DNA of 20,528 nt from a virus. The first letter of the stretch is position 1; each line of letters opens with the position of its first letter. The DNA lies in the IMG/VR virus record IMGVR_UViG_3300046794_000330, positions 1-20,528 of that record, one strand, 5' to 3'. Positions 5,998 through 20,528 of the stretch are shown piece by piece. The position numbers and the translations under genes were made by a program. Below the pieces are notes generated by a model. The model was given only the letters and a program-made list of their open reading frames with translations. It ran no database searches and had not been told where the DNA came from.

Positions 5998-6265
5998 CCG
6001 ATACTTGCCACGCCCTTATCGGGTAGCGGCCCTCTGTTGGTTATTGGGATGCTCTGTAGAAATGCTTCTCGCGCGGATTGCAGCAGCGCTCGCCGTCTTG
6101 CAACTCGCGAGCGCACCACCAGCACCTGTACATGTCGAAATCCAGAATTAGGGTTGTCGTGGCCCGCGCTCAGTCGAGTTCCTGCCGAAGCAGGCGGAGG
6201 TCCGAGCTTCCATTTCGTCCACGACTGACGCTGTTTTCCCACCTGCGCCTGGGGTGATGAAGTCT
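5998..6265. other. Gap between terS and the phosphoesterase: hairpin and a possible Cys-rich mini-ORF
   Basis: No firm gene is seen in this 268-bp stretch. On the leftward strand it contains a perfect hairpin with a UUCG tetraloop (CCTGC-TTCG-GCAGG, 6181-6194) without a U-tract. It also holds a 30-codon frame starting at 6133 (MYRCWWCARELQDGERCC...), which has a CxxC and a CC pair but no ribosome-binding site. Packaging recognition sites often lie near terS, so a cos or pac element is possible but not shown. Confidence 0.4.
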
Positions 6266-7680: not shown

Positions 7681-7709
7681 TTGCGGAACCGATACTCCTA
7701 TCGTATCCT
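7681..7709 (+). promoter_or_regulatory. Promoter P1 with 17-bp palindromic operator
   Basis: A -35 box TTGCGG (7681-7686), a 17-bp spacer and a -10 box TATCCT (7704-7709) precede the small rightward genes. The palindrome GATAC-TCCTATC-GTATC (7691-7707) fills most of the spacer and overlaps the -10 box, a repressor-like position. The same arrangement recurs at 14067 and 20416. Confidence 0.7.
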
Positions 7710-8409: not shown

Positions 8410-8478
8410 AAGGGAGTGGCCCGGGAGTCGAACCCGCTGTACCCGACGAATCGAACGTCGATCCCCGCTGAGCGGAGT
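8410..8478 (-). other. tRNA-like relic with two T-arm-like hairpins
   Basis: Read leftward, CGACG-TTCGATT-CGTCG (8444-8460) and GCGGG-TTCGACT-CCCGG (8421-8437) both match the tRNA T-loop pattern TTCRANN on a stem. If the first is read as an anticodon arm (loop with U33 and CGA) and the second as the T arm, a weak D-like arm (CTCC/GGGG) precedes them. The acceptor pairing is poor and there is no CCA. It could be a decayed tRNA gene, a tRNA-derived attachment-site fragment or chance. Confidence 0.35.
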
Positions 8479-8503
8479 GAGCACCAGCCAGCCACACATA
8501 AGC

Positions 8504-8536
8504 AAAAAGCCGCCGCACGATCTAACGGGCGACGGC
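8504..8536 (-). terminator. Second leftward rho-independent terminator
   Basis: Read leftward, the 8-bp stem GCCGTCGC/GCGGCGGC (one G-U pair) has a 12-nt loop and is followed by TTTTT. It lies about 10 bp beyond the first leftward terminator and would stop transcripts that read through it. Confidence 0.75.
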
Positions 8537-8544
8537 CTTAGAAT

Positions 8545-8572
8545 AAAAAACGCTCAAGCCTTGCGGCGAGCG
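8545..8572 (-). terminator. Leftward rho-independent terminator with GCAA tetraloop
   Basis: Read leftward, CGCTC-GCC-GCAA-GGC-TT-GAGCG forms a stem with a two-base bulge and a GNRA loop, followed by TTTTTT. It is the 3' end of the small RNA candidate. Confidence 0.88.
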
Positions 8573-8626
8573 AAAGTGATCGCTAGATCACTGGAAGGAA
8601 CCGTTGAGTCACACGAACTCTACGAT
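8545..8626 (-). ncRNA. Candidate small regulatory RNA (about 82 nt)
   Basis: No protein is encoded here, but the strand has all parts of a bacterial sRNA. A near-consensus promoter (TTGACG, 17 bp, GATAAT) predicts a start at about 8626. Hairpin 1 is GAGT/ACTC with a 7-nt loop. A single-stranded stretch CGGUUCCUUCC (8593-8603) follows, then a perfect 7-bp hairpin AGTGATC-TAGC-GATCACT, then a terminator hairpin with a U6 tail. The open stretch is complementary to ribosome-binding sites of this phage: 9 nt at 16917-16925, 8 nt at the repressor gene (9456-9463), and 8 nt at 14126-14133 and 20482-20489. Architecture is seen directly; the regulatory role and targets are inference. I know no named RNA family that fits. 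Confidence 0.62.
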
Positions 8627-8632
8627 AGACAA

Positions 8633-8661
8633 ATTATCGCAAACTATAACAGGATCGTCAA
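8633..8661 (-). promoter_or_regulatory. Leftward promoter of the small RNA candidate
   Basis: The -35 box TTGACG (8656-8661), a 17-bp spacer and the -10 box GATAAT (8633-8638) give one of the best sigma-70 matches in the window. The -35 box overlaps the stop codon of the 70-aa gene. An inverted repeat CGATA-N7-TATCG (8623-8639) covers the -10 box and start region, so it may also be repressor-controlled. Confidence 0.7.
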
Positions 8662-8870
8662 GCGTTGAAGGCGACATTGACAGTATCATTTGTGCAGATG
8701 CCAAGTTCAGCCCGAACTTCGGCCAAAACCTCCCGCCGCCTGGCCGGAGAAAGCGCCCGCACGACGGCTCTCAGAACGTCGCTATCGGACCACTCCGACG
8801 ATAAGTCCCCCGCCAGCGGAGCAGGCAGAGTAATGCCATTCTCGCTGGACGACTCTTGAATACCGGTCAT
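8658..8870 (-). CDS. Hypothetical protein next to the repressor (70 aa)
   Basis: The product starts MTGIQESSSENGITLPAPLA, with a disordered N-terminus and a helical C-terminal half (SDVLRAVVRALSPARRREVL). GGG lies 6 nt before the ATG. It is transcribed leftward, in the same direction as the repressor gene upstream, with 136 bp between them that include a possible promoter. The promoter of the small RNA candidate overlaps its stop codon. I do not recognise the family. Its place between repressor and sRNA suggests a role in lysogeny control, such as a modulator or antirepressor, but nothing in the sequence proves it. Confidence 0.7.
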   Translation of the reverse strand: MTGIQESSSENGITLPAPLAGDLSSEWSDSDVLRAVVRALSPARRREVLAEVRAELGICTNDTVNVAFNA

Positions 8871-9006: not shown

Positions 9007-9453
9007 TTACCTTGCGTTTTTGGCTTCGGTAACTTTTTCATCCTTCTTTTCGACGATGCTTTCTATCGGCTTTCCGGTGACGATGGCGCCCATGACCTTA
9101 ACGAGCGCGGCGCGCGTCGCTTCGGGCGAGTGCTCATACATGCCACGGAACGCGTCCATAGCCGCTGCAAGGTCTTCGTCTTCAGCCGGGATGGACTTGG
9201 TGTGGTCCGTGTCGAGCCAGCCGTCCTGAAGGCCGAGAGCCTTCTCTATCTTGTCTGCCAGAGCTGTCCCGATCACCTTCCCATTCTTGATCTGCGACGT
9301 GTAGATGGGGCTGATCCCCAGGCGCTGCGCAAAGCGTCTGACCATGCCTCGGTCGGGTTCACCGGGCCAATCATTGCGCACCTCTTCCTTGAAGCGCTCG
9401 AATAGCCAGAGGAAGTTGCGGGTCCGTACTTGCTCGATGGTCTCAACAGACAT
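9007..9453 (-). CDS. CI-like phage repressor without peptidase domain
   Basis: The 148-aa protein has an XRE-type helix-turn-helix at about residues 37-74 (MVRRFAQRLGISPIYTSQIKNG, then ALADKIEKALGL), followed by a short acidic and helical tail ending in a Lys/Glu-rich segment. It is divergent from a Cro-like gene across a 287-bp control region, the classic immunity layout, so it probably maintains lysogeny by repressing early promoters. The C-terminal half is too short for a LexA/S24 peptidase, and no Ser-Lys catalytic arrangement is seen, so RecA-driven self-cleavage is unlikely. AGGAACCGAA precedes the ATG; this site is complementary to the small RNA candidate. Confidence 0.82.
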   Translation of the reverse strand: MSVETIEQVRTRNFLWLFERFKEEVRNDWPGEPDRGMVRRFAQRLGISPIYTSQIKNGKVIGTALADKIEKALGLQDGWLDTDHTKSIPAEDEDLAAAMDAFRGMYEHSPEATRAALVKVMGAIVTGKPIESIVEKKDEKVTEAKNAR

Positions 9454-9740
9454 TTCGGTTCCTATGTTTTCGCGGGTCAGAGATATGGCCGGCGTGTGCT
9501 TTGCGCACTTTCTGTGTATCAGCGACTTCCTGCGTGTCTCGTCCGCCCCTGCGGCGCCTCGCGGTATCGCTTAATCGAATACTGATACATCGCCCATAAA
9601 AACGCAACTGCTACTAGGAAAGTGTTAAGTGTTTTCACGTAGTTAGATTACATTTATCGGATCTTTTCAGGGCACAGGATTGATATTACTCTCGTGAAAT
9701 GATACAATGATTTCATTGCTTCTTTCACGACGGAGTCCCC
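9454..9740. promoter_or_regulatory. Immunity control region between repressor and Cro-like gene
   Basis: This divergent intergenic region carries the Cro-side promoter and several repeats. TCGTGAAA (9692-9699) and TTTCACGA (9723-9730) form an inverted pair around the -10 box, TGAAAT/ATTTCA (9695-9700 and 9710-9715) forms an overlapping one, and a further TTTCACG lies at 9633-9639. GATAC half-sites occur at 9583-9587 and 9701-9705. These are operator candidates. I could not pick out a convincing leftward promoter for the repressor gene. Confidence 0.6.
9680..9708 (+). promoter_or_regulatory. Rightward early promoter (PR-like)
   Basis: TTGATA (9680-9685), an exact 17-bp spacer and TACAAT (9703-9708) form a near-consensus sigma-70 promoter in front of the Cro-like gene. 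Inverted repeats overlap the -10 box, as expected for repressor control. Confidence 0.8.
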
Positions 9741-12400: not shown

Positions 12401-12417
12401 GATACACTGATCGTATC
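12401..12417 (+). promoter_or_regulatory. Palindromic operator GATAC-N7-GTATC, promoter unclear
   Basis: The site GATAC-ACTGATC-GTATC matches those in promoters at 7681, 14067 and 20416. A -10-like TATCTC overlaps its right arm, but the -35 position reads GCCCAC. If a promoter is here it may need an activator. Confidence 0.6.
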
Positions 12418-14066: not shown

Positions 14067-14095
14067 TTGCGTTTACGATACCGTTGTCGTATCCT
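14067..14095 (+). promoter_or_regulatory. Promoter P2 with 17-bp palindromic operator
   Basis: TTGCGT (14067-14072), a 17-bp spacer and TATCCT (14090-14095) match promoter P1 closely, and the downstream CAGTCAT is also shared. The operator GATAC-CGTTGTC-GTATC (14077-14093) sits at the identical position. Confidence 0.75.
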
Positions 14096-14139
14096 TCAGT
14101 CATCGCAACACACAACCACAACGAAGGAAGGAAAACACG

Positions 14140-14529
14140 ATGAACCCGCAAACCCTAGCCCGCATTGGCTTATTACGCTTCACCGCAGGTTTTCGCCCGC
14201 AACAGGCCCCTGTTGCGCGTAAAAATTTGCCTGTGAGTGATCCTATGATTGTAAGCATTCCCCAGTCGGTTTTCATGACCGAACTTCGCAAGGCTGGCGA
14301 CGAGCACCTGTGCCCCGTCGTCGAGCTGGTCGAGATCCACAAGCAGATGCGGATCGCCGAAAAGACCGCGGACATGTACGCCCTTCTGATGAACCTTGAT
14401 CTTGAGTGGAACGTGTTCGCGGCCAAGTTCCCCGAAGCCGCCGCCGATGGCTGGCTTGCCCTTCTGGTCAACCGTGCGCGAGTCCTACGCGACGAAATCG
14501 ACGAGATCAGCCATGAAAACCGTAATTGA
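14140..14529 (+). CDS. Hypothetical protein with leader-like N-terminus (129 aa)
   Basis: The 129-aa frame has an excellent site (GGAAGGAA, about 6 nt before the ATG). The first 35 residues (MNPQTLARIGLLRFTAGFRP...) are basic and unlike the rest, and a strong 8-bp hairpin, CGCAACAG-GCCC-CTGTTGCG (14198-14217), lies within them. The remaining part from about residue 45 (MTELRKAGDEHLCPVVELVE) is an ordinary acidic, helical protein. The N-terminal stretch may thus act as a translated leader with a regulatory hairpin. The gene cut off at the right window edge begins in a similar way (…FALLR). Function unknown. Confidence 0.72.
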   Translation: MNPQTLARIGLLRFTAGFRPQQAPVARKNLPVSDPMIVSIPQSVFMTELRKAGDEHLCPVVELVEIHKQMRIAEKTADMYALLMNLDLEWNVFAAKFPEAAADGWLALLVNRARVLRDEIDEISHENRN

Positions 14530-16916: not shown

Positions 16917-16927
16917 AAGGAACCGAC

Positions 16928-17422
16928 ATGAACCTGTTTCAAGTAGCCGCCGAGTACCGCGCAGACGCGGCGAAGCTCGAAGACCTGGAATTGGACGATC
17001 AGACGTTCTGCGACACGCTGGAAGCGATCAGCGGCGATCTGGAAACGAAGGCGATGAACACGGCATTCGTCGCGCGCAACCTCGAAGCGACGGCCGAGCA
17101 GATCAAGGCGCACGCAAAGGCCATGGTCGAGCGCGCGAAGGCGATGGAAAACCGGGCTGAGCGTATCCGCAAGTACCTGATGGACGGGCTCACCTTGGCC
17201 GGCCGCGACAAGATCGAAACGCCGTTCTTCAAGATCAAGATCGCGCTGAACCCGCCTAGCGTTGCAATCGACGACGAGTCGATGATCCCGGCCGCATACA
17301 AGACGGAGCCGCTTCCGCCCGCCCCTGCGCCCGACAAGAAGCTGATCGCCGCCGCCCTGAAAGACGGCTTCGAAGTGCCCGGCTGCCGCCTAGTGCGCGG
17401 CCAACGACTCGACATCCGCTAG
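16928..17422 (+). CDS. Gp157-like phage protein (164 aa)
   Basis: The 164-aa protein matches the pattern of the Siphovirus Gp157 family. It has an N-terminal helical region, a long coiled coil (about 50-95, with KAMVERAKAMENRAERIRKY), the segment GRDKIETPFFKIKIALNPPS, and the end PDKKLIAAALKDGFEVPGCR. Members are linked by older work to phage resistance in streptococci and are common next to recombination genes; the molecular function is not established. AAAGGAACCG lies before the ATG, the site with the best complementarity (9 nt) to the small RNA candidate. Confidence 0.85.
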   Translation: MNLFQVAAEYRADAAKLEDLELDDQTFCDTLEAISGDLETKAMNTAFVARNLEATAEQIKAHAKAMVERAKAMENRAERIRKYLMDGLTLAGRDKIETPFFKIKIALNPPSVAIDDESMIPAAYKTEPLPPAPAPDKKLIAAALKDGFEVPGCRLVRGQRLDIR

Positions 17423-20415: not shown

Positions 20416-20444
20416 TTGCGGGATAGATACGATTACGGTATCTT
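20416..20444 (+). promoter_or_regulatory. Promoter P3 with 17-bp palindromic operator
   Basis: TTGCGG (20416-20421), a 17-bp spacer and TATCTT (20439-20444) repeat the P1/P2 layout. The operator GATAC-GATTACG-GTATC (20426-20442) has the same offset. It precedes a gene cut by the window edge. Confidence 0.75.
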
Positions 20445-20495
20445 TAATCCCGTAACAGGATCATCCACTAAAACAACGAACGGAAGGAAACCAGC

Positions 20496-20528
20496 ATGAC
20501 CAACTACACGATATTCGCGTTATTACGC
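20496..20528 (+). CDS. Start of a gene cut by the window edge
   Basis: Only 11 codons are visible: MTNYTIFALLR. GGAAGGAAA lies 6-7 nt before the ATG. The LLR and the DNA string TTATTACGC recur in the beginning of the 129-aa gene at 14140, which is also behind a matching promoter, so the two may share a leader-type N-terminus. Nothing can be said about function. Confidence 0.6.
   Translation, partial: MTNYTIFALLR

Follow-up and report, generated by a model that had tools for sequence, protein, structure and literature searches.

A small RNA gene of a temperate phage lineage, about 82 nt in length and located behind the phage repressor gene, probably encodes a base-pairing, trans-acting regulator that lowers the translation of early phage genes. 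The gene was analysed in a DNA stretch of 20,528 nt (the window), which corresponds to positions 1-20,528 of the viral record IMGVR_UViG_3300046794_000330. A preliminary description of this window had proposed such a gene, and, judging from sequence and covariation, the gene is real and belongs to a family, as supported by the position of its promoter, hairpins with compensatory changes and a motif kept in divergent phages.

Promoter and predicted structure of the small RNA

The predicted RNA is transcribed leftward from its 5′ end at 8626 to 8545 (− strand), terminating in a U6 tail at 8550-8545. Folding of 8626-8545 (−) gave the three hairpins and U6 tail that had been read by inspection, with a free energy of −28.0 kcal/mol and a z score of −3.33 (0 of 200 shuffled sequences folded as well). 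No ATG is present in the 82 nt and the longest GTG frame spans 9 codons, in line with the earlier statement that the RNA holds no protein frame. A promoter scan recovered the described leftward TTGACG-17-GATAAT promoter at 8661-8633 (−), with the −35 box at 8661-8656 and the −10 box at 8638-8633, fitting the consensus at 10 of 12 positions. Since three promoter-like sites were found in the scanned 2.6 kb, compared to 1.3 expected from shuffles, this promoter on its own is weak proof.

Hairpin 1 (8600-8626 (−)) has CGGU at its 3′ base and differs in sequence between homologues, while a stem ending in CGG was predicted in all seven folded RNAs. The adjoining element CGGUUCCUUCC (8593-8603 (−)) is strongly conserved among homologues. 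It had been described as unpaired over its full length, which was rejected, because its CGG is predicted to pair as the closing base of hairpin 1 in the seven folded RNAs, with partial exceptions in L199 (first C, 0.75 unpaired) and L234 (third G, 0.37). The part of the description that held is the free UUCCUUCC (8600-8593 (−)), read as UUCCUCCU in L220, with a mean unpaired probability of 0.85-0.99 across the seven RNAs, of which the window, L011, L170 and L220 show a partly paired first U in the fold prediction. This segment is complementary to ribosome-binding sites of the type AAGGAA/GGAAGGAA. Hairpin 2 (8575-8592 (−), AGUGAUC/GAUCACU) shows changes on both sides in 6/6 modelled pairs, and hairpin 3 (8551-8572 (−)), the terminator stem ahead of U6, in 2/9 pairs, the other 7 being invariant. 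A second, tandem terminator-like hairpin follows at 8506-8539 (−), with z scores of −3.74 in the window and −3.76 in L011.

Homologues and covariation

Diverged homologues of the RNA gene were detected in 14 other IMG/VR records, giving a family of 15 records and, by our own count, 8 types when the window's record is included. Two other IMG/VR contigs are the window's phage itself (99.8%). Terminase-related loci were gathered from viral records (80) and genomes (71). Among 80 sources, made up of the window itself plus 79 viral loci related by terminase, many of which are short so that the immunity region may fall outside, a clear match was obtained in the window and L011 only. L011, whose terminase is 80% identical, carries a diverged copy of the RNA in the same place (nhmmer E 4.8e-14), with a TTGACG-17-TATACT promoter, an intact CGGTTCCTTCC and a hairpin 1 that is still a hairpin despite its other sequence.

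A motif search returned 18 loci, 7 of which carry the RNA (L002, L004, L163, L165, L166, L170 and L172, representing four phage types), and the remaining 11 were rejected as chance matches, judged by context. A terminator pattern search, in which the motif was not part of the pattern, gave 88 stretches, of which the motif or GCTC-stem matches among the matches listed were read. Members obtained through the motif and terminator searches are L163, L165, L172, L170, L199, L211, L220 and L234; they were identified from their hairpin 2, terminator and ATTC, and those from the terminator pattern read CGGTTCCTTCC or CGGTTCCTCCT. A promoter pattern search, again without the motif in its pattern, gave 116 stretches, and a covariance model was run on 72 new loci among the matches listed. 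This search added L328, L338 and L392, the last of which was picked up by regular expression and then confirmed by the covariance model.

The covariance model was built from seven members including the window, with L011, L328 and L338 outside it, and these three scored 62.6, 66.6 and 63.5 bits, respectively. The window, one of the model's own sequences, scored 64.2 bits on the 3′ part of the RNA. TTGACG is kept in all homologues compared save L234, where TTTACT-17-TAAGAT can be read, and the −10 spacing in homologues is 17 or 18 by eye. In the alignment of 8 distinct sequences, which was fitted to the model and is biased towards it, 117/117 cells are paired and two hairpins covary, with both-side changes in 8/15 pairs, a value reached by 0/500 shuffles; slid versions of the structure left at most 38% of the cells paired. 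An unfitted RNAalifold run gave both-side changes in 7/15 pairs, with the window misaligned by one base in hairpin 2. The conservation of hairpins and promoter in related phages that the preliminary description had called for was thus borne out by the covariance model, together with promoter position and motif.

Several candidates were discarded. Matches of 19-22 bits in L032, L025 and L162 were taken as chance, as CGGUUCC is absent at that place in L032 and L025 and as score and context indicated for L162. The sole match in 398 Cupriavidus-family genomes (L265, 36 bits) likewise lacks CGGUUCC at that place, and under stricter filters no credible RNA copy was found in these genomes. Two of the 398 contain a related repressor, with no credible adjoining RNA (best 19 bits). 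A blastn search of 50,697 phage records with the locus as query gave no match, close or remote; the L163 core gave a 21-base chance match in the phage records and short chance matches in plasmids. Rfam 15 at the gathering cut-off gave 0 matches in the window and, on 7 related loci, nothing but a separate tRNA in L211; with E up to 5, weak matches only were returned for the window, including a tRNA-Sec model at 8497-8414 (−). As a separate observation, the contig end of L170 (4882-5036) resembles the window through CGGTTCCTTCC and diverges right after, suggesting recombination or an assembly joint near the motif end.

Genomic neighbourhood

The RNA gene follows a putative HTH repressor gene (9007-9453 (−)), which matches transcriptional regulators/repressors in PHROG and scores below the Pfam cut-off for HTH_3, and a small ORF of 70 aa (8658-8870 (−)) between repressor and RNA, for which no match was found in Pfam or PHROG. 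The TGA stop of this small ORF overlaps the −35 box of the small RNA promoter, and its C-terminal end overlaps an operator-like site. The order Cro-like gene, repressor, small ORF and RNA was observed in the window, L011, L163, L199, L234, L220, L328 and L338, with the small ORFs of L163 and L199 being 30 and 29% identical to that of the window. Partial flanks include the small ORF in L211 and L392 and the end of the repressor in L165.

IMG/VR queries with the repressor, the Cro-like protein and the small ORF recovered the window's phage only, and the repressor query gave no match in genome contigs. Relatives of the repressor or of the protein encoded at 14140 were absent from the collection of 50,697 phage records at E 1e-5. 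The terminase of the window has relatives in cultured phages (52% identity). As far as seen, the phage lineage is uncultured.

A tRNA-like sequence lies after the small RNA in the window (8414-8497 (−)), scoring 21.3 bits with the tRNA-Sec model (gathering cut-off 47) and readable by eye with a UCA anticodon; ARAGORN reported no tRNA in the window. In L211 (588-658), the general tRNA model exceeds its cut-off with 30.6 bits, and in L286 (6045-6120) a tRNA-Gln predicted by ARAGORN only lies behind a related repressor. ARAGORN found no tRNA directly behind the RNA in 8 other member loci, with a tRNA-Trp 1.9 kb beyond in L199. L011 has a strong fold (6106-6180 (+), z −3.0) after its second terminator, where the window has the tRNA-like sequence.

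Complementarity to ribosome-binding sites

The preliminary description had listed complementary sites before the repressor, the Gp157 gene and two further genes, and all of them are present. In the window, AGGAACCG lies ahead of the repressor start (9456-9463 (−), 8-nt complement), GGAAGGAA ahead of the gene at 14140 (14126-14133 (+)), AAGGAACCG ahead of the Gp157 gene at 16928-17422 (16917-16925 (+), 9-nt complement) and GGAAGGAA again ahead of an ORF at 20499 that runs off the window (20482-20489 (+)), so that the candidate sites are scattered over about 0.9-12 kb from the RNA gene.

To place these sites in a wider context, genes were called with a home-made greedy script, in which the choice of starts favours purine-rich sites alike in all groups. 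Six contigs were covered, namely 40,000 of 42,459 bases of the window's phage, 39,000 of 39,962 of L011, 40,000 of 41,366 of L234, and L199, L163 and L220 as a whole. As controls served 30 terminase-related loci, chosen by us from 150, with no copy detected by the model in the stretches examined. At least 8 nt complementary to CGGUUCCUUCC were found at the start region of 16 of the 340 genes in the six contigs, a count in which orthologous leaders are not independent. Permutations of the motif averaged 1.16 genes and never exceeded 12 (0/3000 reaching 16), and permutations with AGGA fixed gave a mean of 2.6, with 0/209 reaching 16. The control loci yielded 2/706 genes, close to the permutation level. 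With at least 9 nt, the count was 9/340 genes vs 0/706 in the controls. The excess is weaker at the 7-nt level, where the 20 genes found were matched by 14/3000 and 14/209 permutations.

The excess goes along with the motif that the phage carries. In the five phages with the canonical motif, 16/326 genes have a site vs 2/706 in the controls (Fisher 5.9e-7), whereas phages with a changed motif (CGGUUCCUCCUC or CGGUUCCACUCCUC) have such a site at 1/173 genes (Fisher p 0.0065 against 16/326) and show no enrichment for sites of their own motif either (1/173). Along the RNA, complementary start regions in the six contigs are most numerous precisely at the motif (16 genes), dropping to 3-4 genes at a distance of five or six bases, and the best-matching part of the RNA includes the motif in each of the five canonical contigs. 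AGGA occurs in 107/326 start regions of canonical phages, 42/173 of changed-motif phages and 180/706 of controls; the AGGA richness of the canonical contigs is accounted for by the AGGA-fixed permutations. The commonest tetramer after AGGA is ACCG, in 8/107 cases (one of them from a spurious ORF that runs antisense to the RNA), followed by 4 for the next. Spurious ORFs antisense to the RNA were dropped from the six-contig count (one each from L163 and L220) and from the motif comparison (L338, L392, L211 and L328). Sites present at starts missed by the gene caller, namely 14140 and 20499 in the window, the 14140 orthologue of L234 and a 391-aa ORF of L199, are outside the 16. Taken together, complementarity to ribosome-binding sites in excess of chance is supported statistically, and a conserved unpaired seed with predicted targets beyond chance was found in the canonical-motif phages only. 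The pairing proposed in the preliminary description gained this statistical support with permutations, no-copy loci and changed-motif phages as controls, except for the repressor as a general target.

The most regular predicted target is the gene at 14140-14529 (+), an early gene in several of these phages with promoter and leader alike, for which no match was found in Pfam or PHROG and no homologue in the 50,697 phage records at E 1e-5. Its site is kept in four phages (window, L011, L234 and L199); in L328, the 14140 orthologue is the second gene of an operon whose leader reads CCGGAGATCGAC, without the site. The L163 gene at 43288-43563 (record G007, 91 aa) has a leader with a 9-nt match. 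It was rejected as a full 14140 orthologue, as the agreement, consisting of the leader and 42% identity over the first 36 residues, ends after residue 36; the leader of its L338 homologue reads GAGGAAAC. The Gp157 site is present in the window and L163 and missing in L338, the protein of which is 85% identical to that of the window, in L199 and in L234 (one G-U compatible change). An 8-nt repressor site occurs in only three of seven phage types (window, L163 and L234), and the match is shorter in L220 and L338 (7 nt), L199 (6), L011 (4) and L328 (below 7), which speaks against the repressor as a target throughout the family. A DnaC-like loader has a site in L011 and L234 and none in its L163 and L199 homologues. 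Further sites precede an integrase gene (L163) and ParA-like and exonuclease-like genes (L011).

An operator-like palindrome at targets and at the RNA promoter

The palindrome GATAC-N7-GTATC was first read from the leaders of target genes. The window has 4 exact copies (7691-7707, 12401-12417, 14077-14093 and 20426-20442) vs a mean of 0.0 in 15 shuffles. Three of the four copies lie, by eye, inside TTGCG-17-TATC(C/T)T promoters, including those at 14077-14093 (+) and 20426-20442 (+), which fall within the promoters of the 14140 gene and the 20499 ORF, respectively. The promoters P2 and P3, to which the preliminary description had assigned these two genes, were missed by the consensus scan, but TTGCGT-17-TATCCT and TTGCGG-17-TATCTT are readable there. 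Counting sites with no more than 1 mismatch in eight contigs of the family (325 kb) gave 50 at spacer 7 vs 3-8 at the other spacers from 3 to 12, and in the control loci (497 kb) 12 vs 4-8. This spacer-7 excess, with many operator-like copies at phage promoters, fits a dispersed operator. The copies are unevenly distributed, with 13 in L163, 1 in L234 and 2 in L199.

The small RNA promoter itself contains decayed operator-like half-sites in the window (8640-8656 (−), 3 mismatches by hand count), and a palindrome with 1 mismatch lies between its −35 and −10 boxes in L011, L211, L220, L338 and L392. A second operator-like site (8671-8687 (−), 2 mismatches) is located upstream of the −35 box, within the small ORF, and in several phages such a site is found inside the end of this ORF. 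In L163, L011 and L220, palindromes lie between the repressor and the Cro-like gene (positions compared by hand), which makes the repressor or the Cro-like protein the likely binder. In this lineage, the palindrome is probably the site of one of these two proteins.

With at most 2 mismatches allowed, the palindrome occurs within 200 bases upstream of 11/16 targets vs 28/310 other genes (p 5e-8), an association that is post hoc given that the motif came from target-gene promoters. It persists without the 14140-type genes (8/13, p 9.6e-6) and when the window's own genes are left out too (7/11, p 2.5e-5). A spacer of 10 also gives 6/16 targets vs 16/310 others, which is unexplained.

Proposed mechanism and alternative explanations

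Own promoter and intrinsic terminator are present as sequence features, and the RNA would be transcribed leftward from this sigma-70-type promoter behind the repressor and small ORF, the transcript ending at the terminator. The free UUCCUUCC may then dock on purine-rich ribosome-binding sites of phage mRNAs; at AAGGAACCG sites, the pairing could extend into CGG and open the base of hairpin 1, as inferred from the ACCG excess after AGGA. A covered site would be hidden from ribosomes, resulting in less translation of early, replication and recombination genes; in some phages, translation of the repressor would be lowered as well. The small RNA thus probably turns down translation of the genes it matches, as far as can be read from sequence.

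The RNA and many of its targets share GATAC-N7-GTATC, suggesting that one DNA-binding regulator probably sets both, in which case the RNA would act as an additional brake, at the level of translation, on operator-controlled genes. Should the repressor be the protein that binds the operator, induction or infection would raise the RNA along with its targets, with the RNA limiting early functions and, in three phages, repressor resynthesis. If the decayed operator of the window means constitutive expression, the RNA may guard lysogeny against leaky early transcripts. A two-layer regulon, in which the GATAC-N7-GTATC regulator controls the RNA and scattered early genes while the anti-RBS motif of the RNA sets their translation (and that of the repressor in some phages), with sites present where the motif is canonical and gone where it has changed, is put forward tentatively, as a plausible extension that we stop short of favouring. 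As phages with a changed motif have almost no sites for their own motif (1/173), another function of their RNA, a past loss of its targets or an action on the host has to be assumed.

This last result also bears on the possibility that the RNA mainly targets host mRNAs or is a general anti-Shine-Dalgarno RNA, with the phage sites as side effects. UUCCUUCC can pair with many SD sequences and the changed-motif phages hardly have sites of their own, but the sites in the phages reach as far as ACCG or GGAAGG, their enrichment being confined to phages with that motif, and we consider this explanation unlikely. The sites might instead belong to a promoter-leader cassette (operator, leader and GGAAGGAA) that was spread by recombination with the small RNA uninvolved. 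Such a cassette would fit the similar leaders of the 14140 orthologues, the operator common to many targets and the L163 gene that has the 14140-family leader and first 36 residues only, as a moved cassette would look. However, the leaders of the repressor, Gp157, DnaC-like, integrase and ParA-like genes are otherwise dissimilar, ribosome pairing fails to explain the extra ACCG, and the changed-motif phages retain the operator yet lose the sites, leaving this proposal quite improbable.

The remaining explanations give the stretch no pairing role or a different product. Two terminator-like hairpins in tandem are able to stop a repressor/small-ORF transcript, and terminators covary as well, so the stretch could be no more than the place where the leftward immunity operon ends in tandem terminators; we regard this as very unlikely, as it leaves unexplained the conserved unpaired UUCCUUCC, the covarying hairpin 2, the fixed place of the promoter and the target excess. 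A role as the leader of a transcript for a phage tRNA, with the hairpins as processing or attenuation signals, is hardly credible: the tRNA-like sequence is downstream on the same strand (21.3 bits) and its L211 counterpart passes the cut-off (30.6 bits), but two terminator-like hairpins intervene in the window, ARAGORN placed no tRNA directly after the RNA in any of the 8 other loci of the family that were scanned, and Rfam at the gathering level on 6 member loci gave the L211 match only. A trans-acting RNA that pairs with phage ribosome-binding sites is the reading we prefer.

Relation to known systems and significance

Named phage immunity RNAs mostly act on one gene or operon; the P1 c4 RNA arises by processing of its target operon's transcript and is aimed at this one operon, and the P4 CI RNA is akin to it. 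Unlike P1 c4, the RNA described here has its own promoter-like sequence, many unlinked candidate sites and no Rfam match. P1 C1 represents a dispersed-operator repressor system. Mycobacteriophage stoperators are many genome-wide copies of one repressor site (PMC9283540); unlike these, the present palindrome lies inside promoters, is also found at the small RNA gene and has a binder that is only predicted.

The lambda OOP and P22 sar RNAs are short phage antisense RNAs tuning lysis-lysogeny genes (PMC12197685). Each is antisense to one gene, whereas the present RNA has no cis-antisense overlap and its short sites are scattered about 0.9-12 kb away. The same review presents VpdS (phage VP882) and PreS (lambda) as Hfq-dependent, trans-acting phage small RNAs, the target of PreS being host dnaN and those of VpdS host and phage RNAs. 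The present RNA resembles them as a predicted trans-acting phage small RNA and differs, as far as they are described there, in its conserved anti-RBS motif and predicted phage targets. The alpha-r14 / cuckoo RNAs of rhizobia (NfeR1 and kin) carry CCUCCUCCC in unpaired regions of three hairpins and share with the phage RNA an unpaired conserved anti-Shine-Dalgarno motif and strongly divergent stems (PMC10746234); unlike these bacterial RNAs with three motifs, the phage RNA has a single UUCCUUCC (or UUCCUCCU, UUCCACUCC) between hairpins. Further prior literature includes PMC12803456 and PMC8546580. A literature search by title and start of abstract, with subscription papers mostly outside its coverage, returned no such RNA.

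With an RNA beside the repressor, one motif matching many unlinked ribosome-binding sites and an operator common to both, the proposed mechanism would, if true, give the lysis-lysogeny decision a further layer of control, acting on translation across the genome. The proposal can be tested directly, with the motif variants found in nature serving as ready-made mutants.
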